Source of the DNA: a virus
Virus record (IMG/VR): IMGVR_UViG_3300022865_000032
Coordinates: 1 to 25,678 of that record
Reading direction: 5' to 3' (one strand)
Length of the DNA: 25,678 nucleotides
A model generated the notes under the pieces. That model saw only the letters and a program-made list of their open reading frames with translations, ran no database searches and was not told the origin of the DNA. Numbering within the stretch: the stretch's first letter is position 1; every line of letters begins with the position of its first letter. A program made the position numbers and the translations under genes. This document shows positions 1 through 21,600 of this stretch, in pieces.

Positions 1-2
1 AG

Positions 3-125
3 AAACACCTACGCGAGATCAGTATAGGTGGGGGTGTGGCATTAGTTATTGACGAAACAAATATAGACATGCTAGAGTATTACGTTACTGGCAAACAAAT
101 ATTTAACATGAAGGATAAAACATGA
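3..125 (+). CDS. 3' end of an unidentified phage gene (partial)
   Basis: Frame 3 is open from the window edge to the TGA at 123-125 and gives about 40 C-terminal residues ending FNMKDKT. The stop overlaps the next gene's ATG at 122 in an ATGA arrangement, which is the normal junction style on this arm and supports a real gene. The tail contains a GGGVAL stretch but nothing that I can assign to a family. The 5' part lies outside the window. Confidence 0.6.
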   Translation, partial: KHLREISIGGGVALVIDETNIDMLEYYVTGKQIFNMKDKT

Positions 126-352
126 ATGCAGAAAATAATAAAGCAAAGAAAGAACTTACACGCATGCAAACTAAAGAACAAGTAATAGATATGTTAAGGG
201 AGGAGGGGTACACGGTTTTATACCCAATACCGAAAGAGGCTTCAAGAATACGCATGGAAGCGAGAATGGTAAGTGTATTAAAACAAAGCATAATACCTGT
301 GTTAGAGCATAGTGGGTATATGGTAACTAAAACAGGAGTGCCTAAAAGATGA
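122..352 (+). CDS. Small phage protein of unknown function (76 aa)
   Basis: The ATG at 122 is preceded by AAGGA at 111-115, a good ribosome binding site. It overlaps the upstream stop by 4 nt, and its own stop overlaps the next ATG at 349 by 4 nt. The protein is Lys/Glu/Met-rich and probably helical, with no membrane segment, cysteine cluster or motif that I recognise. It belongs to the early small-gene run ahead of the DNA polymerase. A long antisense frame on the other strand (103-390) lacks any supporting context, so I prefer this reading. Confidence 0.7.
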   Translation: MNAENNKAKKELTRMQTKEQVIDMLREEGYTVLYPIPKEASRIRMEARMVSVLKQSIIPVLEHSGYMVTKTGVPKR

Positions 353-564
353 ATGCAGAAGATGTAGATATGGTGAATCAACCGCCTCATTATACGAGTA
401 CCAAGTATGAGGTGATAGATATACTTGAAGAGTTTTTTAAAGACGACCCGCTACTATGGCAATGTGGTAAATATCTTTTACGTTGTAAAGGTAAGGGAAA
501 CCTAGAGCAAGACCTGAGTAAAATGATATGGTATGCCAAGCGGAAAATAGAACAGGAGAAATAG
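349..564 (+). CDS. DUF3310 family phage protein
   Basis: The 71-residue product carries the pattern I associate with DUF3310 phage proteins: V-N-x-P-x-H-Y near the N-terminus (VNQPPHY, residues 9-15), then E-V-I-D-I, a central KYLLR (41-45), and a D-L...WY segment (about 55-62) before a basic C-terminus. Such proteins are common in early or nucleotide-metabolism regions of tailed phages, and their function is not established. The start overlaps the upstream stop (ATGA). The gene is followed after 1 nt by the next ATG. Confidence 0.85.
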   Translation: MNAEDVDMVNQPPHYTSTKYEVIDILEEFFKDDPLLWQCGKYLLRCKGKGNLEQDLSKMIWYAKRKIEQEK

Positions 565-565
565 T

Positions 566-823
566 ATGAGTGCTGATTTATTTAGACGTACAAAAAGTTT
601 ACTACTCGATCACATAAGATTGCTCAACCATCACAGTATAGGCGACACTCATGTGGATGACGCACAAGCTATTGTGGATGAGATTAGTATTCTACTTAAA
701 AGCGATGAGATACAGGCGCTAGAACAAAAGATTGATGAAGTTGAACGTAAAGTAGTAAGTGATGATATTGCTGATGAAATACTTAACGGCAAGTACTGCG
801 TAGGTGGATCATGCGAAGATTAA
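566..823 (+). CDS. Small acidic phage protein, unknown function
   Basis: An 85-residue product preceded by AGGAGA at about 552-557. It is mostly helical in character, with a long Glu/Asp/Lys stretch in its second half (about residues 48-72) that could form a short coiled coil. It ends CVGGSCED, so two cysteines sit near the C-terminus. I do not recognise a family. Its position between DUF3310 and an HTH-like gene suggests an early accessory or host-takeover role, but that is inference from context only. Confidence 0.7.
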   Translation: MSADLFRRTKSLLLDHIRLLNHHSIGDTHVDDAQAIVDEISILLKSDEIQALEQKIDEVERKVVSDDIADEILNGKYCVGGSCED

Positions 824-836
824 TGAAAGGAGTATT

Positions 837-1073
837 ATGAGTAAAGCGAGTCACTATTCACAAGAAGAGAGAGATGAATTTCTAGCGAGAGCTATTGAGT
901 TTATGCAGAAAAAACCTGATGCGAGTAGGGCAAGAGTAGCTAAGTATTCAGGTGTAGGAATGAGTGTACTAGAACGATTTGAAAAAGAGGGTAAACTAAC
1001 ACTACCTAAACCAATGACTAAGAAACAAGTGCGTAACAAGTACAAGTGGATGGACACACTAGGAAAAATATAA
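837..1073 (+). CDS. Small putative helix-turn-helix protein
   Basis: I start this at ATG 837 rather than the in-frame GTG at 804. AAAGGAG at 826-832 lies 4 nt upstream of 837, and the GTG start would overlap the previous gene by 20 nt. The 78-residue product has a segment at about residues 27-50 (SRARVAKYSGVGMSVLERFE) that reads as a helix-turn-helix: helix, a turn at the glycines, and a second helix. It is followed by a basic tail (PKPMTKKQVRNKYKW). A DNA-binding role is therefore plausible. Its stop TAA directly abuts the next ATG. Confidence 0.7.
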   Translation: MSKASHYSQEERDEFLARAIEFMQKKPDASRARVAKYSGVGMSVLERFEKEGKLTLPKPMTKKQVRNKYKWMDTLGKI

Positions 1074-1274
1074 ATGGCAGATGAAGCAGACATTGCGAAT
1101 GACCACGTGCAAAAGACTCTTGATTTAACCATGAGGACTATAAATACTAAGGTACCTGAGAATGATAAGAGGATATGTATTTGGTGCGAGGGAAAGATTA
1201 AAGAGAAAGATGGTAGGCGGTGGTGTTCATTAGAATGCCGACAAGATCACCAACTATATGCGAATAAGATATGA
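1074..1274 (+). CDS. TraR/DksA-like zinc finger protein
   Basis: A 66-residue product starting MADEADIAND. The N-terminus has Asp at 6 and Ala at 8, matching the D-x-A tip that TraR (which begins MSDEADEA) inserts through the RNA polymerase secondary channel. A helical stretch follows, then a zinc site: C35-x2-C38 and C51-x3-C55 (CIWC ... RRWCSLEC). F-plasmid TraR is of similar size and acts on RNA polymerase without ppGpp. The C-x3-C spacing of the second pair differs from classical TraR, although I recall phage TraR-like proteins with an FCDxxC-type second pair. The likely role is modulation of host transcription during infection. The start follows the upstream TAA with no gap, and its TGA overlaps the next ATG. 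Confidence 0.7.
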   Translation: MADEADIANDHVQKTLDLTMRTINTKVPENDKRICIWCEGKIKEKDGRRWCSLECRQDHQLYANKI

Positions 1275-1435
1275 CAATTAAAGTAGGTAAGGCCGTGTGC
1301 CATAAGTGTAAACAACACGCTAAACTTTATTACAAAAAGAAATGGTGGTGTTCCGTTGAGTCGGACATGGGTACCTTTAATATAAAGGGTTATTGTAAAA
1401 ACAAAAAGGATCATAGTGCAAATAGTAACGATTGA
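1271..1435 (+). CDS. 54-aa Cys-rich (zinc ribbon-like) protein
   Basis: The ATG at 1271 overlaps the previous stop as ATGA, and the frame is open to TGA 1433-1435. The product has C10-x2-C13, then C27 after KKKWW, and C42 near GYCKN. The first three cysteines and perhaps C42 or a nearby His could hold one zinc. It is very basic. The coupled start, the Cys pattern and the small overlap (20 nt) with the polymerase start all favour a real gene. Its KWWCS segment recalls RRWCS in the preceding TraR-like protein, so the two may be distantly related. Confidence 0.65.
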   Translation: MTIKVGKAVCHKCKQHAKLYYKKKWWCSVESDMGTFNIKGYCKNKKDHSANSND

Positions 1436-3281
1436 TTTCGAAACATTTTATGACACGGGATTTAGTTTATCCCGCATGACTACAGAAGAATACATACAAG
1501 ACGATCAGTTTCAGGTCATCGGTGTAGCTATAAAAATTAACGATGATAAGACCGAATGGTATATCGGTGATGACTGTGCAAAAGCCCTTGCAGAAGTAGA
1601 CTGGGCAAACTCCATGTTACTTTGTCACAACACCCAGTTCGATGGTGCCATACTAAAATGGTACTACGGGTTCGAGCCGGCCGGGTACTTTGATACCCTG
1701 TCCATAGCACGTGCGCTACACGGTATCAATGCGGGAGGTTCACTTAAAGCTCTGGCTGAACGTTACAAACTAGGAGAGAAGGGAACCGAGGTAGTCGATG
1801 CTAAAGGTATGCGATTAGAAGATTTTCCTGAGCATCAGCTACGTCAGTATGGTGTGTACTGTAAGAACGATGTGAAGTTAACCTATGACTTATTCAAGGT
1901 TATATCTATGGGGTTCCCGGTAGACGAATTAAAACTGATAGATATAACATTAAAGATGTTCATCTCGCCTACCTTACAACTCGACACCGAGATACTAAAG
2001 ATACGACTACAAGAAGTAAAACAGGGAAAGACCCTACTGCTAGAAGGGCTAATGAAGAAATTAGAATGTGAGGATGCTGAGGCAGTACGTAAGAAGTTAG
2101 CTAGTAACAAACAGTTTGCTGAGCTACTATGCCAAATGGGTGTACGATGCCCTATGAAAATATCCCCCACTACAGGGAAAGAAACCTTCGCCCTAGCTAA
2201 GAATGATGTAGGGTTCATAGCCCTATGTGAACATGAGGACACATTTATTCAAGACCTATGTGCTGTACGTTTAGGTACGAAGTCGACGATGGAGGAGGCA
2301 AGGATCGAGCGGTTCATCTCCATAGCTACACGTAACAATAACCAACTACCTATCCCCCTTAAGTATTATGGCGCACATACTGGCCGATGGGCGGGTATAG
2401 ACAAGGTGAACTTCCAGAACCTACCATCCCGAGATAAGAAAAAGAAAGCATTAAAGAACGCTATCCTACCACCAGACGGACATGTCATCATGAACGTTGA
2501 CTCTTCACAGATCGAAGCTCGTATACTAGTCTGGCTTGCCGGGCAACACGATGTGGTTGAGCAGTTTAGAAAAGGTGAGGATGTCTACTCGGTATTTGCA
2601 TCTAAAGTATTTAACAGGGAGGTATCTAAAAAGACACCGACCGAACGCTTCATTGGTAAGACATGTATACTTGGATTAGGGTATGGCACGGGCGCTAAGA
2701 AACTACAACATACATTGAAGACATCTCCTCCGGGTGCTGATCTATCTGACCAAGAGTGTCAAAGGATTGTTAAGGTATACCGGGATGTTAATCATGAGGT
2801 GATTAAGTTATGGGACAAATGTGATAAGGCATTAAAATTCATGGCATCATGGCCTGAAGGTAAGCCGTTCTATTACCTCGACAATAGAAAATCTATACTA
2901 GTTACCCCGGGGGGTTTACGCTTACCTAACGGACTCTACATCTATTACCCTGATCTCGAATGGAAGACCGACGAGAGCGTTAGAGGTGGGTATGTCTATA
3001 AATCTAGACGTGGACAGGTGAGTATATGGGGTGGTGCTATGGTAGAGAATGTTGTCCAAGCATTAGCTAGGATAGTAGTGGGTGAGCAGATGATAGCTAT
3101 TAATGAGAGATACAAACCGGTGCTTACGGTACACGACGCTATTATATGTACGGCACCTAAAGATGAGGCACAAGAGGCACTAGACTTTTTAATGGCTGAG
3201 ATGTCTAAAGCTCCGGCTTGGGCAGAAGGCTTACCAATAACTTGTGAGGGAGCATATGGAGAAAACTATGGGGACTGCTAA
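1416..3281 (+). CDS. Family A DNA polymerase with 3'-5' exonuclease
   Basis: Replicative DNA polymerase of 621 aa, starting at GTG 1416 with AAAGGA at 1405-1410. The N-terminal proofreading domain shows Exo I D7/E9 (TIDFET), Exo II N72/D76 (HNTQFD) and Exo III Y148/D152 (YCKND). The polymerase domain shows HTGRW at 321-325, motif A with D362 and E367 (VDSSQIEAR), motif B R411/K415/Y423 (RFIGKTCILGLGYG) and motif C HDA at 573-575. The residue equivalent to E. coli Pol I Phe762 is Leu419. Motif C has Ala where most family members have Glu (HDE). There is no 5'-3' exonuclease domain, as is usual for phage enzymes of this type. It probably works with the helicase, ssDNA-binding protein and primase-helicase farther along this arm. 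Confidence 0.95.
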   Translation: MQIVTIDFETFYDTGFSLSRMTTEEYIQDDQFQVIGVAIKINDDKTEWYIGDDCAKALAEVDWANSMLLCHNTQFDGAILKWYYGFEPAGYFDTLSIARALHGINAGGSLKALAERYKLGEKGTEVVDAKGMRLEDFPEHQLRQYGVYCKNDVKLTYDLFKVISMGFPVDELKLIDITLKMFISPTLQLDTEILKIRLQEVKQGKTLLLEGLMKKLECEDAEAVRKKLASNKQFAELLCQMGVRCPMKISPTTGKETFALAKNDVGFIALCEHEDTFIQDLCAVRLGTKSTMEEARIERFISIATRNNNQLPIPLKYYGAHTGRWAGIDKVNFQNLPSRDKKKKALKNAILPPDGHVIMNVDSSQIEARILVWLAGQHDVVEQFRKGEDVYSVFASKVFNREVSKKTPTERFIGKTCILGLGYGTGAKKLQHTLKTSPPGADLSDQECQRIVKVYRDVNHEVIKLWDKCDKALKFMASWPEGKPFYYLDNRKSILVTPGGLRLPNGLYIYYPDLEWKTDESVRGGYVYKSRRGQVSIWGGAMVENVVQALARIVVGEQMIAINERYKPVLTVHDAIICTAPKDEAQEALDFLMAEMSKAPAWAEGLPITCEGAYGENYGDC

Positions 3282-4395
3282 ACAAAACGGCAAAGAATTA
3301 TATATTAAAAGTAGTGATGGTTCGGAGATTCATGCTTCAATGCGAGCGGATGGAGGATTTGATATATCAAACAGTAAAGGGAACAAAATATCTATGACGC
3401 GTAATGAAGCCAAAGAAGTAGTAAAAAATTCCAAATTTGCAGCCACAAATAATTTAAAAGCTCCTGTAAAAAGGGAGCCAGTCCCAGTTGTTATGGGAAA
3501 TACAACTAATTTATTAAAAAGTGTAAAGGATGCACTAGAAGATTATTATATAAAAATAACTATGGCCATAACTTATTCTAATATTAATAAATTAGTAAAG
3601 AACAAGGGCATTGAGGGTCAGAGGAAAAATGAGGGGGAAGAGATATTAAAAAATTTATTAGAGTACCCAAAAATAATTATTGAGCCACATAGTTACGCCT
3701 ACCAAAAACCAGAAGACCTAGATTTAATGTTAGAAGATTTTAAGTCGGTAGATCAAATTAAATTACCCTTTCCTCAAATGACTATTATTACGGGGGAGAA
3801 CATAACAGATAGTGGTATTGCAGTTAAAAAGACTTCTGAACAGAACCACTTAATTAATGTAATCTATCCTTATTATCTGTTTGAATATGAGGGAGGCGTG
3901 CGAGTAACTATGCTATTGGCGAGCGATTTTACCAAAATGTATACTCATAATACATTTATTACACTTGATAGCGAAACAGGATTATCTTGTGATGTACCTG
4001 AAAATCAATCTCCGATTGAGCGTTCCCACATTGAAGACCTCGTAAAAATTTGTATTACAGTTATTCATAAGATGACTCTGGGTAAAAATAATTTTTATGT
4101 GTCTGTGCCTACTCCCGAAGAAGCAAAAATTAATCGTAGTCGTGTGGCTAAGGGTAAAAAACCACTCATAAAATTTAAAATGGCAATGATTGAGGGTAAA
4201 AAAACAATGATGTCTTCAACAGGCCACGGCACGCATGCTTCACCTTGCTTGCATTGGAGACGAGGTCATTGGAGAACCATGAGTAAATCAGGTAAAAAAA
4301 CTTGGATTGCACCTATGGAAGTGGGCGATGAAGAGAACGGAAGAATCATTAAGACATATGCAATAGGGAATTATAGTCTTTTGGGGGCTACGTAA
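3268..4395 (+). CDS. Uncharacterised phage protein with conserved HWRRGHWR-type C-terminus
   Basis: The frame is open from GTG 3244. Candidate starts are 3244, ATG 3256 (AGGGAG only 3 nt away) and ATG 3268 (GGAG 6 nt away), and I favour 3268. The product is about 375 aa. The N-terminal 60 residues are polar and low in complexity. The middle is a mixed alpha/beta domain without motifs that I know. The C-terminal 60 residues hold HASPCLHWRRGHWR, then KTWIAPMEVGD and a final K-x-Y. I recall this block as a recurring tail of uncharacterised phage proteins; its His/Arg/Trp richness suggests nucleic-acid or metal binding, but this is unproven. Overlap with the polymerase is 14 nt. Its codon use is more AT-rich than the polymerase gene. 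Confidence 0.75.
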   Translation: MGTAKQNGKELYIKSSDGSEIHASMRADGGFDISNSKGNKISMTRNEAKEVVKNSKFAATNNLKAPVKREPVPVVMGNTTNLLKSVKDALEDYYIKITMAITYSNINKLVKNKGIEGQRKNEGEEILKNLLEYPKIIIEPHSYAYQKPEDLDLMLEDFKSVDQIKLPFPQMTIITGENITDSGIAVKKTSEQNHLINVIYPYYLFEYEGGVRVTMLLASDFTKMYTHNTFITLDSETGLSCDVPENQSPIERSHIEDLVKICITVIHKMTLGKNNFYVSVPTPEEAKINRSRVAKGKKPLIKFKMAMIEGKKTMMSSTGHGTHASPCLHWRRGHWRTMSKSGKKTWIAPMEVGDEENGRIIKTYAIGNYSLLGAT

Positions 4396-5981: not shown

Positions 5982-6229
5982 TGGCCGAGTTTGTATTGAT
6001 GGTAGCTTTAGGTAGTGAGGTGGGTAATAATAGTTGTTGCCTTGCAGAACATTACGTCGGCACGTTTAAATCGTGCGTTGAAGCCCATGAATACATAGAG
6101 AACCACATACCCAAAGGCCCAAAAGAAACACGATGCTTGCACAAAGGGGACATAAATTTACCGGAAGACTTCAAACACAAGTACATACTTGATGCGTGTA
6201 AAATAAAAAGGGATTGCGATGCCCAGTAA
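5978..6229 (+). CDS. Small phage protein of unknown function (83 aa)
   Basis: The ATG at 5978 overlaps the upstream TGA, and a second ATG follows at once (5981). The N-terminus EFVLMVALG is hydrophobic but short, more like a beta strand than a membrane anchor. Four or more cysteines are spread along the chain (CC at about 20-21, then about 33, 53, 74 and 80) without a clear zinc pattern. The C-terminal tail KIKRDCD is encoded by the first copy of a 23-nt direct repeat that recurs at 7062-7084, so the present C-terminus may have been altered by insertion of the HNH gene that follows. Confidence 0.65.
   Translation: MMAEFVLMVALGSEVGNNSCCLAEHYVGTFKSCVEAHEYIENHIPKGPKETRCLHKGDINLPEDFKHKYILDACKIKRDCDAQ
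6199..6221 (+). repeat. Direct repeat, left copy, bracketing the first HNH gene
   Basis: The 23-nt sequence from TAAAATAAAAAGGGATTG to the ATG recurs at 7062-7084 with one difference (C/T at 6217 versus 7080). This copy encodes KIKRDCD of the upstream 83-aa protein in one frame and supplies the ribosome binding site AAGGGA and ATG of the HNH gene in the other. Similarity stops abruptly on both sides. Confidence 0.9.
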
Positions 6230-7064
6230 AGCATATTACGAAGCTAATAAAGAAAAATTAAAAGCATATGGTAGAGCATACGGCAAAGCTAATAGAGAAA
6301 AATTAACAGCTCATAAAAAAGAATATTGCGAAGTTAATAAAGAAAGAATAAAAGCTTATGAAAAAGCATATCGCGAAGCTAATAGAGAAAAATTAACAGC
6401 CCAAACAAAAGCATACCATGAAGCTAACAAAGAAAAGATAAAAGCATATCGCGAAGCTAATAGAGAAAAAATAAGAATAAAGGCTAAAGCCTATCGTGAA
6501 GCTAATAAAGAAAAAATAAAAGGCTGGTACAAGGCTAATAAAGAAAAAATAAAAGCTTATGAAAAAGCACATTACGAAGCTAATTCAGAAAAAATAAAAG
6601 CTCGATCAAAAGCATACTACGAAGCTAATACAGAAGAGGTCCTTGCTAAAAACAAAGTATACCGCGAAGCTACTAAAGATAAAATAAAAGCGTACCGTAA
6701 AGCTAATAGAGAAATAAGAATGGCCCAGAAAAGAGCATGGCACAAAACGAATACAGAAAAAATAAAAGTATATGCTAAAACCTACCGCAAAGATAACAGA
6801 GCTATGATGTATACACATGTTGCAAAAAGAAGGGCATTAAAGATGAATCAGTATGAAAAGTTAAGTGCTGATGATAAATTTGTGATAGAAGAGTGCTATG
6901 GGTTAATGCAATTAAGGACTACAAAAATGGGGTTTGCGTGGCATGTAGATCACATTATCCCTTTGAGCAAAGGGGGTTTACATAAGCCCACTAATTTACA
7001 GGTAGTTCCTGCAACATGGAATTTACAAAAAAATAATAACCACCAGGAGAAATGGATTGGCTAA
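6219..7064 (+). CDS. HNH endonuclease with long Lys-rich repeat region
   Basis: The 281-residue product starts at ATG 6219, 5 nt after AAGGGA. Residues ~5-190 are a run of imperfect 11-15-residue units of the type A-Y-x-E-A-N-x-E-K-I-K, which are basic, helical and probably DNA-binding. Residues ~236-275 are the HNH nuclease core: W-H-V-D-H at 241-245, PLSKGG, N259 in TNLQ, and N268 in WNLQKNN. The core looks intact and should cut DNA. Such free-standing phage HNH genes are often homing or nicking enzymes. A 23-nt direct repeat brackets the gene, and a paralogue lies at 7333-7866. The repeat region is extremely A-rich and differs from neighbouring genes. Confidence 0.9.
   Translation: MPSKAYYEANKEKLKAYGRAYGKANREKLTAHKKEYCEVNKERIKAYEKAYREANREKLTAQTKAYHEANKEKIKAYREANREKIRIKAKAYREANKEKIKGWYKANKEKIKAYEKAHYEANSEKIKARSKAYYEANTEEVLAKNKVYREATKDKIKAYRKANREIRMAQKRAWHKTNTEKIKVYAKTYRKDNRAMMYTHVAKRRALKMNQYEKLSADDKFVIEECYGLMQLRTTKMGFAWHVDHIIPLSKGGLHKPTNLQVVPATWNLQKNNNHQEKWIG
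6228..6790 (+). repeat. Tandem coding repeats in HNH gene (approx. 33-45 nt units)
   Basis: Imperfect units around GCATA(T/C)CGCGAAGCTAA followed by A(G/A)AGAAAA(A)T repeat about a dozen times with spacing of 33, 39 or 45 nt, always in frame. They encode A-Y-x-E-A-N-x-E-K units. The purine-rich coding strand explains the long spurious hydrophobic frames on the opposite strand. Confidence 0.85.
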
Positions 7065-7084: not shown

Positions 7085-7333
7085 GCGGACATTGAACACG
7101 AAATATATGATGGTCTATTAGTAATGGATCACTTTGATGATTGCATTATTGGAGTAGTAAAGGGTATTGATAATGAAGATAAGATTTGTTACAGCTACCA
7201 ATGTATCATCGCTAAACTTATGTGTGATGATGAGATGGAAGAGATTGATGCAATAGAATATTTTGAGTACAACATGATGGGTGCGTATGTAGGAGAAAAC
7301 ACTCCATGCTTTTTATTTACCGAGGATGATTGA
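7082..7333 (+). CDS. Small acidic phage protein of unknown function (83 aa)
   Basis: I start at ATG 7082, 5 nt from AAGGGA, rather than at the overlapping GTG 7079. The product is strongly acidic (many Asp/Glu, ending FLFTEDD), with DGLLVMDHFDDCIIGVVKGI forming apparent beta strands near the N-terminus. I do not recognise a family. It sits between two HNH genes and may originally have been directly downstream of the 5978-6229 gene. Its stop TGA shares its last base with the next ATG. Confidence 0.65.
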   Translation: MADIEHEIYDGLLVMDHFDDCIIGVVKGIDNEDKICYSYQCIIAKLMCDDEMEEIDAIEYFEYNMMGAYVGENTPCFLFTEDD

Positions 7334-7866
7334 TGCCCTATAAGAATCCTGAAGATAGAAAAGCGTATTGCGAAGCTAATAAAGAAAAAATAGTATCCAA
7401 TAAAAAAGCTTACCGTGAAAGAAATAAAGAAAAGATAAAAGCATATGCCAAGGCTTGGCAAAAAGCTAACAAAGAAAAAATGAAAGCTTACTACGAAGTT
7501 AATAAAGAAAAAATAAAAGCAAATGGCAAAGACTGGAAAAAAACTAATAGAGAAAGGGTAAAAACTAGCAACAAAGCTTACTACGAATCTAATAGAGGTG
7601 CAGCCTGTGCGCGAGTAAAAGTATACAAAGCAAAGAAGAAACAAAATAATCTCATCACTACAAAAGGGGATAAACAGTTAGCAAAATGGATATACACTAT
7701 GGCTTCAAAGCTTACAGAAACAACAGATATTGTGTGGCATGTAGACCATATTAAACCTTTATCCAAAGGGGGTATGCACTCACTAAATAACTTGCAGATT
7801 GCCCCCGCACAATGGAATTTACAAAAGAGTAATAACAACGAGGAAAGATGGAATGGCAAAGATTAA
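7333..7866 (+). CDS. Second HNH endonuclease, repeat-bearing paralogue
   Basis: The 177-residue product starts at ATG 7333, which shares one base with the upstream stop; GAGG at 7322-7325 is a possible ribosome binding site. Residues ~11-88 carry about five units of the A-Y-x-E-A-N-K-E-K-I type, fewer than in the first HNH gene. The C-terminal HNH core has W-H-V-D-H at 135-139, PLSKGG, N153 in NNLQ and N162 in WNLQKSNN, all in the same order and spacing as in its neighbour. The shared ending (NLQ-x2-PA-x-WNLQK) shows the two are paralogues. The nuclease core looks complete. Confidence 0.88.
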   Translation: MPYKNPEDRKAYCEANKEKIVSNKKAYRERNKEKIKAYAKAWQKANKEKMKAYYEVNKEKIKANGKDWKKTNRERVKTSNKAYYESNRGAACARVKVYKAKKKQNNLITTKGDKQLAKWIYTMASKLTETTDIVWHVDHIKPLSKGGMHSLNNLQIAPAQWNLQKSNNNEERWNGKD

Positions 7867-12565: not shown

Positions 12566-15463
12566 ATGCTCCGCTTAAATCCCGGGGCATTTTTAACCTT
12601 AAAAGATAGAGAGAAAATGTTAAAACAATTCTATGAAAAGGCACTGCCTAATGAGGGCTACTACTGTGTAGCTTATAACATTCCTAATAGTAAAGCCTAT
12701 GTACATGACTATGCATCATCTATAGACGAAGTTGTTGAGTTAATTCAGACACACGTAAAAGAAGAGCGTAATGTTTTTGTAGCGATGAGTACATTCAACG
12801 AACAGGACCGGAAGGCTTCTAAATCTATATTTGTTAAGTCCTTTTATCTTGACCTTGATGTTGGTGAGAGCAAAGATTACCAGACACAGAAAGAGGCCTT
12901 AATTGATCTTAGTAACTTTCTTGAAACTTCTAAGCTACCTATGCCTGCTATTGTTAATAGTGGTAACGGGATACATGCTTACTGGTTCTTAAAAGAACAA
13001 ATTACTGTTGAAGAATGGAAACCTTTAGCAACTCAGCTTAAAAATCTATGTGTAGCTGAAGGATTAAAGATAGACTTAGCTATCACTGCAGACTGTGCTC
13101 GATTGCTTAGGTGTCCTAATACAGTTAACTATAAAAAAACTCCACCTAGTCCAACACTCGTAGTAAAAGATGCAGAAGAATATGACTTAAAAGTAATAAA
13201 AACGATACTAGACAATGTAGAAATACCTTTAGAAGAGTTAGTTAAAAAGTCTAACTTTACCGACGAAGAAAAACGAGTGAAGTATGGCAACTACGAGAAC
13301 CACTTCAAGCCTCTACTTATTGATAGTATGCAAGAAAACGAAGATGGGTGTGCTCAGATTAAACACTATATAGATAATGCTAAAACTGCTGACGAACCTT
13401 TATGGTGGCGCGTGTTATCTCTTGCACAAAACTGTGTGGATAGAGACGATGTTATCCATGTTATATCTAAGGACCATGTAGGATATTCCTATGATGAGAC
13501 AGAAGAGAAAGCAACTTCAACTGATGGAAAGCCACACACATGTAAAGACTTTAATAATGTTAGCCCAGGTATCTGTACATCGTGCCCACACTGGCAGACT
13601 ATATCAACACCTATTCAGTTACATAAGGTAACCGCTAAGGCGGAGCCGGTAGAAGAATCAGTGGAACTGATAGCTATAGAAGGAGAGGTATTACCTGTAA
13701 TACACAAGAAGAAGAACGGGTTACCTCAAACTTTAGATGATAAAGGTTACTGGCTAGGAGCTAAACAGGGCGGTATATTTAAAAGCATTACTACCGTAGA
13801 TAAAAAAGGTGCTACCCTTAAAGAAGACTTACTAGTATATGAGTATGATATGTTTGCTATCCGACACCTTAAAAGTAATGCGGATGGTAACTGTCTAGTT
13901 ATTAATGTAATGCATCCTCATGACGGTACACTCGAGTTTTTACTGCCTATGAAGTCGGTATATGACCCTACAGAATTAAGAAAGACATTAACGAGCCAAG
14001 GTATTTATTATGATTCAAGACAACAGGAGGAATTAATTATGCGTTATTTTATTGATTGGGCAAAGGATATGCAAAGAAAGAATAAGTATGATGTTATGTA
14101 TGATCAGATGGGATGGAACGAAGATCATAGTTCCTTTGTGGCAGGTAACATAGAAATGTCTAGGGATGGGACAGAAAAGATTACACCTATATCTCCTCTT
14201 GCTAGGCCAGTAGCACCCTTTGTAACTAAGAGTGGAACCTATGAAGGATGGAAAATAGCCGCGCAAAAGCTCAACCAGAACGGTATGGAGATGCATATGT
14301 TTACTATGCTATGTGGATTTGGTTCTGTGCTTATGACTTTTTCATCTACTAATGGGGTTGCTATATCATTAACAGGAGAATCCGGTGCGGCTAAGACTGG
14401 CGCATTAAAAGCAGCGATTAGTATATGGGGTGAACCAGAAAACCTATATGTGCAAAACATTACTGCTAACGCTTTACAAGGAAGGTTCTTAACACTTCAC
14501 AACTTACCTATGGGATTTGATGAAGTAGGTAATAAAAATCCATACCTTATTTCTGATTTTATATTAGGAGTTTCACAAGGTAAGGCAAAAGTTAAGATGC
14601 AAGCATCAACTAATTCTGAACGTGATTATGAAGCACCTTCATCTTTGATTGCTATCATGACCTCTAACCATTCGTTGATTGATAAACTAAAACAGATTAG
14701 GTCTAACCCTAATGGTGAGGCGGCTAGGTTGATTGAGTTCTCTATGAGAAAGCCTAAATCATTCATTGATAACGCACGACTAGGTAAAGAAATCTTTGAT
14801 GAGTTTAATGTACATTACGGATGGGCAGGTCCTGACTTTATTAGGGCACTGTACAAGTATGGTGATGAAGCAGCTATCAAAGCTAATCTAGGTAAGTGGG
14901 AAAACCGATTTGTAGCAGATTTTGGTAATGATACTGCCTACCGGTTCTACGAGAACTTAGTGGCCGTTACTATGACAGCCGCAGAAATAGTTGTTGATGC
15001 AGGTATTTTGGTGATAGACATTGAAAGAATCTATAAGTTTATTGTAGGTGAAATGATTAGTATTAAAGATGAAACAGTTAAGATTAATGATGTAGATTAT
15101 GAGTCTGTTCTAGCAAACTATCTTGATTCTAATATAGACAAGGTCCTCGCGTTCTCTGAGGAAGGTAACATGATTAGTGAACCTAGAAACCAATTAGCTA
15201 TTCGTATAGAACACGCTAAAGATTATATGTGGATTTCGAAGAAAGAGTTCGACGCATACCTTGCAGAGCTACCTATCAGTACAAAAGAGTTTGTATACCA
15301 GATGAAACAGATGGGGGTAGGGGTAGATGTAGGTGCTAAAATTAAACAACGTATGAATGCCGGGTGGGTAGATGTACAAAAATCTGCTACGGCGGTGTAT
15401 AGGTTTAAGCTAAGTACCATTGGTAAGACATATGAGGTAGAAAAGCTTGCAGCTACACAATGA
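12566..15463 (+). CDS. Primase-helicase: AEP-like primase fused to DUF927-type ATPase
   Basis: A 965-residue protein. Residues ~30-200 resemble an archaeo-eukaryotic primase/RepB-like domain: D96-x-D98 (FYLDLDVG), SGNGIH (132-137), and TADCARLLRCPNTVNYK (174-190). A Cys/His cluster follows at 324-342 (H324, C326, C337, C340, H342; PGICTSCPH), probably a zinc site. Residues ~380-730 resemble the DUF927 helicase module: Walker A GESGAAKT (604-611), Walker B FDE (651-653), and TSN (699-701). The last 200 residues are a separate helical domain. It should prime and unwind DNA in one polypeptide, filling the place of T7 gp4. ATG 12566 has only a distant AAGG; ATG 12617 is an alternative start that would keep all motifs. 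Confidence 0.9.
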   Translation: MLRLNPGAFLTLKDREKMLKQFYEKALPNEGYYCVAYNIPNSKAYVHDYASSIDEVVELIQTHVKEERNVFVAMSTFNEQDRKASKSIFVKSFYLDLDVGESKDYQTQKEALIDLSNFLETSKLPMPAIVNSGNGIHAYWFLKEQITVEEWKPLATQLKNLCVAEGLKIDLAITADCARLLRCPNTVNYKKTPPSPTLVVKDAEEYDLKVIKTILDNVEIPLEELVKKSNFTDEEKRVKYGNYENHFKPLLIDSMQENEDGCAQIKHYIDNAKTADEPLWWRVLSLAQNCVDRDDVIHVISKDHVGYSYDETEEKATSTDGKPHTCKDFNNVSPGICTSCPHWQTISTPIQLHKVTAKAEPVEESVELIAIEGEVLPVIHKKKNGLPQTLDDKGYWLGAKQGGIFKSITTVDKKGATLKEDLLVYEYDMFAIRHLKSNADGNCLVINVMHPHDGTLEFLLPMKSVYDPTELRKTLTSQGIYYDSRQQEELIMRYFIDWAKDMQRKNKYDVMYDQMGWNEDHSSFVAGNIEMSRDGTEKITPISPLARPVAPFVTKSGTYEGWKIAAQKLNQNGMEMHMFTMLCGFGSVLMTFSSTNGVAISLTGESGAAKTGALKAAISIWGEPENLYVQNITANALQGRFLTLHNLPMGFDEVGNKNPYLISDFILGVSQGKAKVKMQASTNSERDYEAPSSLIAIMTSNHSLIDKLKQIRSNPNGEAARLIEFSMRKPKSFIDNARLGKEIFDEFNVHYGWAGPDFIRALYKYGDEAAIKANLGKWENRFVADFGNDTAYRFYENLVAVTMTAAEIVVDAGILVIDIERIYKFIVGEMISIKDETVKINDVDYESVLANYLDSNIDKVLAFSEEGNMISEPRNQLAIRIEHAKDYMWISKKEFDAYLAELPISTKEFVYQMKQMGVGVDVGAKIKQRMNAGWVDVQKSATAVYRFKLSTIGKTYEVEKLAATQ

Positions 15464-15647
15464 TCCGGAGTGGCTCTTCCCCTATGAGATGATGCAAGTA
15501 GGGGATAGTTTTTTTATTCCGACACTTAAGAGTGCACCACTAATCTATTCAATTGAAACCGCAGCGAAACGTGCTAAGGTAAAAGTTAAAACGTATGCGG
15601 TAGTAGAGGATGACTTGATGGGTGTACGTACGTGGCGTATAGGCTAA
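15447..15647 (+). CDS. Small conserved phage protein (66 aa)
   Basis: It starts at TTG 15447 with AGGTAG at 15435-15440, overlapping the primase-helicase by 17 nt; the in-frame ATGs at 15489 and 15492 would remove conserved-looking residues. The product has PYEMMQVGDSFFIPTLKS, AAKRAKVKVKTYAVVEDD and a final VRTWRIG. I recall short phage proteins with a similar M-x-V-G-D-S-F-F ... A-A-K-R ... V-R-x-W pattern; no function is known. It is the last gene of the + strand arm. Its TAA overlaps the stop of the facing gene. Confidence 0.75.
   Translation: MQLHNDPEWLFPYEMMQVGDSFFIPTLKSAPLIYSIETAAKRAKVKVKTYAVVEDDLMGVRTWRIG
15644..15647. other. Convergent stop-codon overlap between the two arms
   Basis: The bases CTAA contain TAA (15645-15647) for the + strand 66-aa gene and, on the other strand, TAG (15646-15644) for the 2181-aa gene. 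The head-on gene arms meet with no spacer. Confidence 0.95.
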
Positions 15648-18600
15648 TCAGGTATTCCATAAATATCATTTAATGATTCGTCGTATTTTTTACCAATGAA
15701 TACACCATTTACAGAATCTTTTAATCTAGCGTCCCTTGCTTTCATAGACCTTTGTATAGTCTTTCTTGATAGCTGAAAACCTTTTGGAGCTTTGCTATTA
15801 AACCTATCAATATCTCGTTGAATATCTTCTACACCATCCTCATCTCCTGCTTGTCTGGCTAGGTAATATTTTAATAATAGTTTAGACTTCCGAGCTAACA
15901 GTTTTCTTTCTGGGCCTTTTAATGCATTAGCTTTAGTATAAGCTTCTGCTAACTCAATGTTACTAAACCCTACTATTTGCATGAAGGACTCGTATACACT
16001 TGGATCACCTTCTATAATAGGCACACCATATTTGTTAGTCATGCCGTCAGTATTATATCTAACAGTCTTAAGGGCATTTCCTAGGAAAGTAGGTAACACT
16101 CTTTCAGCTCCTCGACCTACGTCGCCATCTGCAATCATACCAACGCCTTCCGTAAATCTACGAAGTATTCCATATCCAGGACCACCTAATACTTCCATCA
16201 TATAAGCCGACGCACCTATTTTTTCTAATCTAGCTGGGTCTTCTCTAAATGCTAAGTCTCTAAAACCTGTTCGTTGAGATATGTCTATACCAAGTAGTGC
16301 ACTTAAAGGACCTCGAAAGGCTAAGTCTCCCACTGCTGCATTAACATATGTATGTGGTTCAAATGGCTCATCGTCATCATCTAATAACAATGAAGCTAAT
16401 ACGGTGGCTCCTCCATACAATGGCATACCTTGAATTCCTGCCATTAAGAAAGAATACCCATAGACACCTATCAATTGTTTTGCTGCAATGGCACGAGTTT
16501 CTTTATCTGCCTCTGTTTTAGGTTTTGCATTAAACACATCATTAAATAATTTACTTACTAAATAGATCTGTGCCTGAGCAAATCGTTTAAAGACGAAAGC
16601 TACTTTACCAATACCGTCTTGGAACATGCTAGGACCTACTTCAGGTAACGCGTGAGAATGGACTTTACTGGTAAGCTCAATAGCTTTTTGTATAGCGTCT
16701 GTTTCCGAAGCTCCTTTCGATCTTGCTAAATTAAATGCAGCAATTAAAGTAATCTCACGGTTAATTCGTTCAGAGTTTTGAAACACATACCCTATTCCTG
16801 CCTCAACTTTTGATTTAATTTTTAATCCACTACCCACTTCCTGACCTAAGTTTTTTTGTAGTTCGGTTATTTCGTACCCTATACCCCGACGTAACGCGGC
16901 CGTTTCTTCTGCCCTTGTAAATAAATTGTGGTACTTACCCCCTTCTTTGAATAACTTAGCATTTTTTCCGGTGTAGGTTTTCTCACCTGTTTTTTCATTA
17001 ATGGTAAAAGGAGCAGATGTTCTATCAGGAAGGAACCCTCTATTCTGCTCAAACCCGCCAGCTCCATATAGTTTCATTGCATCAAATAAAGCTTTTTGTG
17101 AAGAATCAAACCCATACTCACCCTGTAAAAAAGGTAATACAATAAGGGGGATTTGCGTTAAGTTAACAATAGCTGAAGATATATTACCACCAATGTACCA
17201 TACATAACTTAAATATGCTGGCATAGCCGCCCACCCTTTTGCTACTGGGTTAAGATAAAAAGGTAAGCTTTTAATAGTATCGGCACCTATTGCTCGTATT
17301 AAAGCACTGTCAGAGTTAGAAGCTTCCTTACTAATTATATCTGATGTGTTAACTATTTTATTATTATACTTTGCATTCGCTATAGAGCTTACTATCTTAG
17401 GTGCTGTACTTGCATAAGCAAATAAAATATCCTCTTCATAACCCGGTATACCTTTACGATGTGCTTCTTGGTTTCTTAGTGACTGTTCAGGAAATAAAGA
17501 TAGATACTGTTCTTCAATATTTTCAATTGTTAGTTTTTTTGCCTCATCACTTAATTTAGGGTCATTATTAATCTTTGCTTTTAGCCGTTGAACAAATGCT
17601 GCTGGTGGGGCCCCACGTATTTCAGCTCTTTGTGATTGTGCAAAATCTTCAAAGTTTGTGGCGCCTTCTTGACGTAATTGTTCTTTTTTCTTTTTCCTTA
17701 AGAATGGTGATTCTGCAGAAGCTTTACCTTCTTCCCCATCTTTAGTTACATACTTAAACCAATAATCACCTTTACGTACCATAGGTAAATAATAGTTAAG
17801 TGGTACAAACTCTTCGCGTAAATTTGCTTCAGCTTCCGGATAAGCCTCAATCATTGTATCTAAAAGTGCTTTGTATTTATTTCTTAGGTCGTTAACAATC
17901 TGATTACCTAAATCTTTTAGGTCTTGTGGTAGCCGTTCGTACCGCTCTACAAACTCAGCTGCTTTAGGATTTTCTTGCAATAGCTGTTGTCTAGCTACTT
18001 CGTCTTTAATAATAGCTTCGGGGTCTATATTTGCTCTAGATAGTTCAAGTAATACACGGTTCCATTCTTTAACAAGCTGTTTACCTCTTGGGGTTTGAGC
18101 ATACTTTTTACTTATAAGGTCTTCTGCATACCGCAACACAACAGATACTTGTTCTCTACCTTGTTTAATTATGTTTGCTTTGAGTTCAAGAAAAGATTGA
18201 AGTTCTCGTAGGCCAGATATTTGGTCGCCAAACAACTCAATCTTATTAGGAATAGATAAAAACCCCATGTATATCCGCGCAGCTTTATCTTTTAATGTAG
18301 ATAAAAATGATACCAGTTCTCTACCAGTACCCGACTGTACTACAGGCATATTCAGAATAGAGTTGCCTAGTTTGTCAAACTGTTTCATTGCAAAGCTTTT
18401 GGATGGTACGCCACCAAGATCGACTATGTTAATGTCTGATGCTGCTTTTTCTTCAGCTGTTAATTCTTTTGCAGGTACTACCTCTGGTATTTCTTCATCT
18501 TTTTCTAATACACCTTTTTTGTTTTCATCTTTAATAGGGTTAGTATTTTTAGGTAATCTTATGTTAAGGGCTTCTCCCTGTACCTTCGCCGCCGCTTCTC

Positions 18601-21600
18601 TAGGCTTGGCGGGCTGTATCTTACTTTTAAGCTCCATGATAGTGTCGGTTACTTCTTCTTTTGAGAACTGAATGTCTTGTGACACTTCAGGGTTAACATT
18701 AAAATCTATCATTTCTCTAATAGCAGCTTCATTTTCAGGCTCTATAGAAATTATATTATCTATAACAGTATTTTCTTCAAATTCAAATCTGGCTTCTTGT
18801 TTTACAAATTTTTTGCCAGCTATATTAGGGACAGCTACTCTTTTTGGAAATCTTGTGTCGGTGTTGTCTGGGGCTATTTCTCTTCGAGGACCTATCATAA
18901 GCACCGGCATTTGTGTGACGCCCAGTCGTTGTAGAGCCCTTGCTCTATGCCTGCCTTCATGGCCTGTAATTTTTGCCCATCCTCTCTCAGGTGACTCAAA
19001 TGTTAGATTGGGCACATCGTATGGGTTGCCCATATAAGCGCCATCTTTATCGAATTGATTAACCCATTTTACAACGGCTTCAGAATTACCTTCAAAATAT
19101 TCAGCAATTTGTGCATCTAAAGATTTAATTGATTCCGCCTCTGTCCCTATAAGTTTTTGTGAGGCTAAATCTAAAAATTGTTGAGGCGACATTGTAGCTA
19201 CGTAATAGGTTCCCTGCTTAGCGTAATTTGATGCCGTATTGTTATTGTTTAATTCTTCTATTAGTTTAGTTATTCTTTCAGGTAGCCATCCTGCAATAGT
19301 TTTTATTTCTTTCTTAGACATCTGTACAGCCGCTGTACTTGATGTCTGTCCTCTAGTACTAGTAGCCTCTGCTAAGGAAACTCTCAGAGAGTTCAAGATC
19401 ATGTCTTGGATGTCTGCATCGCTAAACTTGTTAACGTCGTACAAGCCAAGCCTGCGTAAGAAGTTTTTCACTGCGCCTACTATGCGTCTAAACAACGAGT
19501 TGTTAGGGGCACGTTCACCTAGCTTAGCCATGACCTCTTGTAAGAAGGGAGTACTGTCTACCGTAAGTTCTGGATAGAGGCGTTGCACTTCATCAAAGAT
19601 TGCCTGCACCTCAGCGTTTTGTTTTCTTAATGTTTTAAGGCGGTTGAGTAGTGGGATGTAGTCTTTACCTACCATACGTTCTAGCCCGTAATGCTCACCT
19701 ATTTCGTGCAGTAAGATACGACGCGCCTGGCCTTTCTGTATACGGTTAGCTACTATATAAGAGGTTTGTGTTTTAGGGGCGTAAGCACCATTAGCTGTAG
19801 AAGACATTTTAATATTGGCAGGCAATTGATCTACGCTATTCACGATGACTAACTTGCCGCTCTCTATCATTCTGTTCACGCCAGGTCCAAACTCTTGGAC
19901 CAACTCTGCGGTTACGGTTTCTGTAGTTTGTCCGGTGCCTTCTGTTTCAACTCGTGATTCTTGAGTAGCTAGGTAGTCAGCTTTTTCTTTTCGTAAAGCT
20001 CTAACTCGGTTGGCTATATAAGAAGGAATCTTACGGTTGGGTTCTTGGTTTAGGTAACTCTGCACTTCAAATTCTGCTTGCGCTAATCGTGACTCTATGT
20101 CCGCCAATTGTGTATCAGTTCGTGACTCTTGTGTTTCTTGAGGTGGAGGAGTTATACCAAATTCAACTTCTAACTGTTCTACATAATTTAAAGCCATTGC
20201 AGGATCTTCGTCAACAATGTTATCTAGCTCGGTAATAATATCTGACTGAGGATCATCTATTTTAATACGTGCTTTAAGTGCATTTATTCTTTGTGTTAGT
20301 GAACGAGGCTCTCCGCTTGTTCCACTTTCAACTGTTCCAGCAACATTTGGATCGACCACCACTGGAGATCCGTCAGTTGGGATAGCGCTCTCGGTAGGGA
20401 TGCTGTCGGGTACTCCAATGCTATCATTGCTAACTCCAGCTGTTCCAGCGGTATATTCTGCAGTTCTGTTTCTAGCATTTTCTATCTCCTTCCTTAACTT
20501 AGGTAGAGCTTTTTTAAGGTTTCCAAACTTTGTAATTGCTTCTACATTATTATCCGTTTTTGCTTTAGTAAGCATAGCTTGTGCTTGTTTACCAAAGTCT
20601 GCTAATTCTTTTGAAGAAAAAGGTCTTTCAGTAAAATAGTTAACTAATCCTTGGTCTACTGTGTCGGCCGTAATACCTGCACTTTCTAACATAGCAGGAG
20701 TAATGACTACTTCATCAGGGTTTACTTTATTAGCTATGTTTTGTTTACTATTGGCTAATTTCGCATCAGTTTCTGCAGTTCTTCCTAATGCTTTAGCTTT
20801 AGTAATTTCACTACGTAATTTTTTTAAATCATTTCTTATTTGTTTTCTTTCATTTTCATTATACCCGCCAAAGTATGTATCTAAATCTTTCTCCATAACT
20901 TGAGTAATACTTTTTTCGTCGAGTAGCTGGGTGTCTAAATCTTTCTGAAGTTGTTCAACTTTTGCTTGCTGAGCTAATACGTTAGCTGCTTCTTGATCTC
21001 TAGCTTCTGTTGAGGGCTGTGGTTCTATTACTGCTTCTGTTGTCGTAGTCGCTGTCTGTGTAGTAGCCACAGGAGTTGTTACTGTAGTGTCTACTAGCTT
21101 AGTTTCTTCTATAATCTCTTCTTGTTTTTCTGGAGATGCTTTTTTAGTTAATGCTTTTTCTCTAAGATGTTCTGGTATAGAAGCTACACCCTTGAATGCA
21201 CCACCAGCAACGGCACCTTTTATACCAGCTTCTAACATACGATCAAAGTCATCAGAATCAAAGATAGCTGAATGCCCTTGCACAAACTTCTCCGCTGCAA
21301 TACTAACGGCCTCTTGTGTAGCCTCAGTCAATCCTTCGGTACCAAGTCCACCTAATATATTAGATGTAGCACGTCGAGCAAGTCCGGGTTGCATACCTGA
21401 CTTCTGTAGTATCTCAGTAACAACTGATGCTCTGCCGGGCTTACTAAAGCTTTTCATAATACTAGTAGGTAGGATGCTATCAAGAGAAGCATTAACAATC
21501 CCTGCAAGAGAGGCTGCTAGAGGTTCAAAGTCCCCTGTCTGCTCGTAGATATTTTGGAATACTTCGGGAGCATTGAGAGCATAAGAACCTAAAAATACAC

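Follow-up and report, generated by a model that had tools for sequence, protein, structure and literature searches.

A compact TraR-like zinc-finger protein encoded by a phage and its probable action on host RNA polymerase

Introduction

Host RNA polymerase is regulated by the homologs of TraR, which are very small proteins; the tests reported in PMC9239242 concern TraR together with five of them. The locus described here raises the question of whether a small phage protein, which begins like TraR and carries a zinc finger of a different spacing, belongs to the same group, and what it would do to the polymerase of its host. The locus is found in IMG/VR virus record IMGVR_UViG_3300022865_000032, of which positions 1 to 25,678 were analysed; this whole stretch of 25,678 nucleotides is termed the window. 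The features at the centre of the question are the following.

1074..1274 (coding 1074-1271, stop 1272-1274), + strand: TraR-like compact zinc-finger protein of 66 aa, from its open reading frame, its match to PHROG 54, the profile match to TraR and a structural model
1074..1097, + strand: codons of the tip MADEADIA (DxxDxA motif), read in the sequence and kept in relatives
1176..1238, + strand: compact finger, codons 35-55, CIWC-EGKIKEKDGRRW-CSLEC, from the sequence, the loop statistics and the lack of a match to PF01258

The initial annotation had given 828-1274 for the TraR-like protein next to an HTH gene; the reading frame at 1074-1274 holds, and the start at 828 marks only the ribosome-binding region of the gene that precedes it.

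The tip and the cysteines of the window protein

The 66-residue product, MADEADIANDHVQKTLDLTMRTINTKVPENDKRICIWCEGKIKEKDGRRWCSLECRQDHQLYANKI, displays the DxxDxA tip directly at its N terminus (M-A-D3-E-A-D6-I-A8), with D3, D6 and A8 at the positions that they occupy in TraR (MSDEADEA, PDB 5w1s). Cysteines 35, 38, 51 and 55 are arranged as C-x2-C-x12-C-x3-C, that is, one CxxC pair (35/38) and one CxxxC pair (51/55), and are presumed to be the zinc ligands, while Arg48-Arg49 is also present. Both the MADEADIA start with Asp6 and Ala8 at TraR positions and the four-cysteine site with a C-x3-C second pair, as they had been described beforehand, are confirmed by the reading frame and by comparison with the TraR sequence in 5w1s.

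Relationship to TraR

A phmmer search of the PDB with the window protein as a single sequence returned only HIT1 (E 0.59), and a profile search was required to detect TraR. When a profile built from 42 compact-finger proteins was used instead, the best PDB match was TraR (5w1s), with a sequence E-value of 3.1e-4 and a domain E-value of 0.0016. The alignment pairs profile positions 1-48 with TraR 1-49 and ends at the R48-R49 pair; the homology to TraR hence extends beyond the tip, past the first zinc knuckle and as far as the two arginines. YbiI was the third PDB match of this profile (E 0.016). By hhalign, the compact-finger alignment matched classic TraR-type phage proteins with a probability of 99.3%, and an alignment of proteins with a short C-x2-C finger, described below, with 99.1%.

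Among phage protein families, residues 1-62 of the 66 match positions 1-67 of the 75 in PHROG 54 (DksA-like zinc finger) at E=2.8e-8, and this family matches 41 of the 42 compact-finger proteins at E<=0.001. With the protein split, E was 0.18 for residues 1-32 and 0.01 for residues 24-66, so the PHROG 54 match is not carried by either half by itself. No match was found in NCBIfam, nor to Pfam PF01258 (zf-dskA_traR) at E<=1; PLATZ (0.007) and zf-FLZ (0.26) are the weak Pfam matches of the window protein. Identities to its relatives in IMG/VR lie between 100% and about 30%, with 37 loci from the single-sequence search and 42 from the alignment search. The proposed relationship to TraR, already suggested by the initial annotation, is supported by the top rank of TraR in the PDB profile search, the hhalign probability of 99.3 and PHROG 54, and we treat the window protein as a homolog of TraR on these sequence comparisons.

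A finger shorter than the classic one

The published spacing CxxC-17-CxxC is absent in the window protein, which has CxxC-12-CxxxC. To describe this finger, alignments were selected from the loci in hand: 42 compact, 12 classic or near-classic, and 14 short C-x2-C proteins (L023, L025-L028, L046, L047, L055, L082, L106, L125, L091, L093, L118). Three rows of alignment A3 (L005, L009, L013) begin outside the likely start, with the aligned core unaffected. PF01258 matched none of the 42 compact and none of the 14 short C-x2-C proteins at E<=0.1, against 12/12 of the classic or near-classic ones. For the residue statistics, 69 distinct proteins were picked and, with that of the window, sorted into four groups: compact (41), short C-x2-C (15), classic (9) and other (5).

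In the compact type, the second knuckle takes the form [W/F/Y]C-x3-C and the loop that leads to Cys3 in TraR is absent. The residue before Cys3 is aromatic in 41/41 compact-finger proteins, an Arg stands at -2 in 34/41 and at -3 in 34/41, the residue at +4 after Cys2 is hydrophobic in 40/41, and the first Cys falls at position 34-37 in 40/41. In TraR (CEACGNPIPEARRKIFPGVTLCVEC; 5w1s) the RR pair lies at +8/+9 after Cys2. Among the 20 members with a ten-residue loop, RR is at these same positions in 11 and a single R or K in seven, with neither R nor K in two (L133, L147); the loop of the window protein is twelve residues long and has RR at +10/+11. The simplest reading of these alignments is that a deletion removed the loop that separates RR from Cys3 in TraR, and that C-x3-C replaced the original second knuckle. 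Since the loop is missing, the second knuckle is [W/F/Y]C-x3-C and PF01258 gives no match, the window protein is a compact TraR-like variant rather than a canonical C4-finger TraR, and not a standard member of the TraR type.

A protein that bridges the two types is encoded by Proteus phage 2207-N35 (L171; 60 aa, CLTCGEEIPEPRRWCDKEC). It matches PF01258 weakly, with 21.9 bits (cut-off 24.9) and E=1.7e-4, over residues 34-48 only, and its depositors labelled it 'transcription suppressor'.

Other finger forms occur behind related tips. A second compact class combines the MADEADxA tip with a short CxxC-x10..11-CxxC finger (for example CDWCGExxPRLVxGxCARCRD), and Salicola phage CGphi29 (L040) has a short C-x2-C finger behind MTDTIDEA. 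In L044, whose sequence is the same as that of Burkholderia phage BcepMigl (L039), the first Cys pair is C-x3-C (CLNGC), so both knuckles are variable within the tip family.

Constraint on the tip

In the 42 aligned compact-finger proteins, M1, D3, E4 and D6 are invariant and A8 is present in at least 90%, though many of these rows came from searches whose patterns included the tip. Evidence independent of the tip search comes from loci reached only through the gene upstream, which encodes a helix-turn-helix (HTH) protein: at 14/14 such HTH-only loci (L060-L073), a gene starting with [M/V][A/S]DExDxAN lies directly downstream. For 12 close relatives, a set partly gathered through tip patterns, pN/pS was 0.056 for residues 2-10 and 0.53 for both residues 11-24 and 25-34; the finger gave 0.24 and the C-terminal part 0.23. 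The contrast is smaller, 0.21 for the tip versus 0.43 and 0.47, for nine sequences reached only via the HTH gene (nine of the 14 HTH-only loci, L065 and L067-L070 being dropped). Synonymous sites are near saturation, and the figures are therefore qualitative; within this limit, the tip appears to be the most constrained part of the TraR-like protein.

How common the compact form is

The DNA of IMG/VR was scanned for MADEADxA codons, blind to the finger, which gave 82 stretches that reduce to 80 loci; the counts are of loci, some of them identical, with the 66-residue sequence of the window at four. The scan required an ATG start and, at the variable position of MADEADxA, a residue of the ILVMF kind, which excludes GTG starts and TraR itself (MSDEADEA). 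The finger pattern of the window, C-x2-C-x10..12-C-x3-C, was found at 36 of the 80 loci (one of them, L135, being ambiguous), the second compact pattern, C-x2-C-x10..11-C-x2-C, at 20 (including L096, L105 and L137, which are longer proteins of about 120 aa), and the classic C-x2-C-x14..17-C-x2-C at 10, three of which were scored as spacing 14 owing to an extra Cys. The remaining 14 have none of the three patterns: four are cut by contig ends (L086, L097, L103, L144), four are not TraR-like (L085, L109, L120, L136), and six have altered Cys spacing (L090, L115, L117, L130, L140, L145), with L090, L140 and L145 read as near-classic. By pattern, compact loci thus outnumber classic ones 56 to 10 of the 80, and annotation by PF01258 only would miss many candidate phage regulators of RNA polymerase.

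Isolated phages carry relatives as well. At E<=0.01, 38 phage records were matched by one compact protein and 56 by another, with hosts that include Vibrio, Pseudomonas, Proteus, Burkholderia, Acinetobacter, Yersinia, Pantoea and Erwinia, among others, all of them proteobacteria. TraR homologs of this sort are described in PMC9239242 as found primarily in that group. A scan of genome contigs added one relative, on a Myxococcales contig, with a classic-type finger. Five of the six isolate-phage relatives compared have the C-x2-C...C-x3-C finger, and in the sixth, from an Acidovorax phage (L172), His replaces the last Cys. Their tips are looser: DxxDxA is at residue 3 as annotated in L171 only, is shifted to residue 4 or 7 as annotated in L168, L169 and L170, and is absent in L172 and L173; by our own reading, a start at the second Met of L168 would place it at residue 3. 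The exact tip is therefore a trait of the relatives of the window protein and not of every compact-finger protein.

Predicted structure

The AlphaFold2 model of the TraR-like protein, of middling confidence (mean pLDDT 71, pTM 0.44), consists of helix 5-22, the finger and helix 53-65. The lack of an N-terminal helix that reaches the active site had been named in advance as one result that would count against the assignment; the model of the monomer has an N-terminal helix at 5-22. In TraR, the N helix spans residues 2-27 and the C helix 58-73 (PMC6970531), and the predicted helix-finger-helix layout is in line with these two helices. The predicted helix 53-65 is similar in size to the C-terminal helix of TraR, the one that meets beta Si1. 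A Foldseek search of the PDB with the model (pLDDT 71) found no TraR chain, its best matches being MYND domains (E 0.45), with LIM fingers and archaeal large-subunit ribosomal proteins among the other weak matches, and VIA-align gave one row, 5mq4, at Z 2.3. We take both outcomes as uninformative at this model quality.

Neighbouring genes

The genes around the TraR-like gene, and the larger ones of the window with a family assignment, are listed below.

349..564, + strand: DUF3310 protein, upstream in the same gene row (PF11753, E=4.6e-10; PHROG 236, labelled nucleotide kinase, E=9.5e-20)
837..1073, + strand: helix-turn-helix protein, 78 aa (helices 9-25, 31-38, 42-51 and 62-77; model pLDDT 77)
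1271..1435, + strand: Cys-rich protein, 54 aa, conserved, its start overlapping the stop of the TraR-like gene by 4 bases (ATGA)
1416..3281, + strand: family A DNA polymerase, the replication gene directly downstream (PF00476, E=1.3e-33; PHROG 17, E=2e-84)
12566-15463: DUF927-type primase/helicase-like protein, 965 aa (PF06048, E=5.4e-23; PHROG 25314, E=1.9e-89)

The stop codon of the HTH gene directly abuts the start codon of the TraR-like gene. Its product is predicted to have four helices, with an HTH-like pair at 31-38/42-51, and the structural neighbours of the model include many DNA-binding regulators at low Z, the best being 4.8 (FapR); model and neighbours support an HTH protein, with no family named. 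A TraR-like gene follows the HTH gene at 22 of 24 HTH loci (HTH identities 51-100%), four of which are near-identical to the window; the other two are cut by the contig end (L074) or consist of a 26-residue match on a 336-kb contig (L075). More distant phages with the compact finger have what reads as a different gene at the upstream position (21 loci, judged by eye), and the HTH gene as a neighbour seems to be confined to the clade of the window. The coupling to an upstream HTH gene and a downstream Cys-rich gene that had been noted for this locus consequently stands as adjacency in the window and, for the HTH neighbour, fails outside its clade.

For the 54-aa Cys-rich protein, neither Pfam nor PHROGs nor NCBIfam gave a family at E<=1; its own search found relatives at 12 loci, and its pattern is VGKAxCHKC...WWC..ESDMGTFN.KGYC, shared with relatives that include L080 and L081. 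At other loci (L010, L012, L014, L018, L020, L060-L063) a small Cys protein just after the TraR-like gene has a pattern such as PCxxxCRYE...CxxCxRTYDDLDxW, which may resemble DUF1289.

In G011, a record with a Cys-rich relative, PF00940 identifies a phage RNA polymerase (E=5.6e-100), and the TraR-like profile has no match there. Among 11 chosen records, PF00940 was absent from 10/10 that carry the TraR-like gene, one of them of 49.5 kb and most of them fragments, and it was likewise not found in G012, the record of the Cys-rich relative L080. A link of the TraR-like gene with the lack of a phage RNA polymerase is only suggested by these records, which are mostly fragments. Vibrio phage VBP47 (Schitoviridae) carries a compact-finger relative and, as a member of that family, presumably has RNA polymerases of its own, so the link between a TraR-like gene and the lack of a polymerase is not general.

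As for the rest of the window, its DNA polymerase, when compared with phage records, comes closest to those of Rhizobium phages and KPP25-like Pseudomonas phages, at about 35%. Two proteins, at 6219-7064 and 7330-7866, have what we read as an HNH-like end (WHVDHIxPLSKGG...NLQ) behind long Lys/Glu/Ala repeats (for example EANKEKIKAY), and the 2181-aa protein at 15644-22189 on the - strand is perhaps an internal virion protein, a guess from its size and position. The window contains no tRNA. A scan of positions 1-4000 for sigma-70 promoters found 7 where 11.8 are expected, and carries no information.

Proposed action and its alternatives

Several properties of TraR proteins bear on what the window protein would do. 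In PMC9239242, five TraR homologs bind RNA polymerase at the DksA site and inhibit rrnB P1 without ppGpp; lambda Orf73 is weaker when it carries D3N or D6N, and TraR likewise requires D3 and D6; R48 of TraR is important for binding the rim helices and R49 contacts beta'Si3. E46, R49 and K50 make up the Si3 contact, which serves activation more than inhibition according to PMC6970531, and the Pseudomonas prophage TraR proteins reported in PMC10449497 retain DxxDxA. The window protein keeps D3, D6, A8 and the RR pair and has lost the loop from K50 onwards, from which we infer binding in the channel, inhibition of rRNA-type promoters and weaker activation. Our preferred reading, to which we assign a probability of roughly 0.7, is that of a compact TraR relative, with its gene among those for phage replication, that would bind the secondary channel of host RNA polymerase and repress rRNA-type promoters without ppGpp. 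Open complexes at rRNA and ribosomal-protein promoters would be weakened in the absence of ppGpp, host polymerase and resources would thereby be freed for the phage, and host gene expression would probably be slowed during infection. Inhibition would be better preserved than activation, because K50, the beta'Si3 contact for activation, and the rest of the loop are gone.

Three other explanations are less likely. The protein could enter the secondary channel and act mainly on promoters of the phage, with the adjoining HTH protein as recruiter or targeter, rather than on host rRNA promoters; the order of the two genes at 22 of the 24 HTH loci over HTH identities of 51-100%, and the start-stop junctions, which suggest translational coupling, speak for such a pairing. 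The different upstream genes at the 21 distant loci indicate that the TraR-like protein can do without the HTH protein, and we hold this explanation to be unlikely. Another possibility, and in our view an improbable one, is a general FCS/treble-clef zinc finger that binds nucleic acid or protein, comparable to those found in some HNH endonucleases and in MYND or polyhomeotic proteins, and whose acidic N-terminal helix merely resembles that of TraR. It would explain why the finger half by itself scores almost equally against an HNH PHROG (0.011) and PHROG 54 (0.01), and it fits the weak whole-protein matches at E<=0.1 to PLATZ in 24/42 and to DUF2116, a probable treble clef, in 16/42 compact-finger proteins, the weak match of the compact-finger profile to a polyhomeotic finger in the PDB (0.061), the weak MYND and LIM hits of Foldseek, and the absence of DxxDxA from two of the six isolate-phage relatives. 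It sits badly with the first rank of TraR in the full-length profile search, where homology runs through the first knuckle to RR, with the weak PF01258 match of the bridging protein L171, and with a tip that is the most constrained part.

A protein that enters the secondary channel and works on elongation or on backtracked complexes like the Gre factors, not on initiation, appears very improbable to us: GreA and GreB do have a similar tip, DxxExA (PMC9239242), but that of the window protein is DxxDxA as in TraR and DksA, and the predicted order of helix, finger and helix is that of TraR.

Significance

The window protein is of a known kind, the phage TraR homologs, in a variant form that PHROG 54 already lumps with the DksA-like fingers; no description of a C-x3-C or compact TraR was found in the open-access literature searched. 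A broader interpretation, which we offer as speculative and on balance doubtful, is that phages hold a large, so far unnamed group of compact TraR proteins that would have retained the tip and the rim-helix Arg pair and remodelled the remaining zinc domain on two or more occasions (C-x3-C and short C-x2-C), with inhibition kept and beta'Si3-dependent activation lost, and with an adjoining HTH partner that adds promoter choice in the clade of the window. If this were true, the compact class would separate the two activities of TraR in nature. The compact proteins form a natural experiment on the parts of TraR that inhibition requires and those that activation requires.

Comparison with known systems

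The FCS/treble-clef fingers (DUF2116, PLATZ, MYND, polyhomeotic) share with the window protein a second knuckle of the form [W/F/Y]C-x3-C followed by a helix, but the matches to them are weak and the matched stretches displayed lie in the C-terminal half. PHROG 54, the 'DksA-like zinc-finger protein' family, includes the window protein and does not separate compact from classic fingers.

The TraR protein of the F plasmid (5w1s, 6n57) shares DxxDxA at 3/6/8, the N-terminal helix, the first CxxC (35-38 in the window protein, 37-40 in TraR, and so almost equally far from the tip), the Arg pair at 48-49 and a short C-terminal helix, which is predicted at 53-65 in the window protein. TraR differs in its length (73 aa versus 66), in the distance from RR to Cys3 (eight residues versus one) and in its second pair, C-x2-C versus C-x3-C, while the window protein lacks K50 and a match to PF01258. 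Lambda Orf73, P2 Orf82, VP882 Orf61, VHML Orf8 and X. bovienii Gp34 are, like the window protein, small phage-borne homologs of TraR. In PMC9239242, TraR and lambda Orf73 have the spacing CxxC-17-CxxC, and four Cys are stated for TraR and the other homologs, as against CxxC-12-CxxxC here; the paper places some of the five in regions with replication genes and proposes for them a ppGpp-free inhibition of host rRNA promoters.
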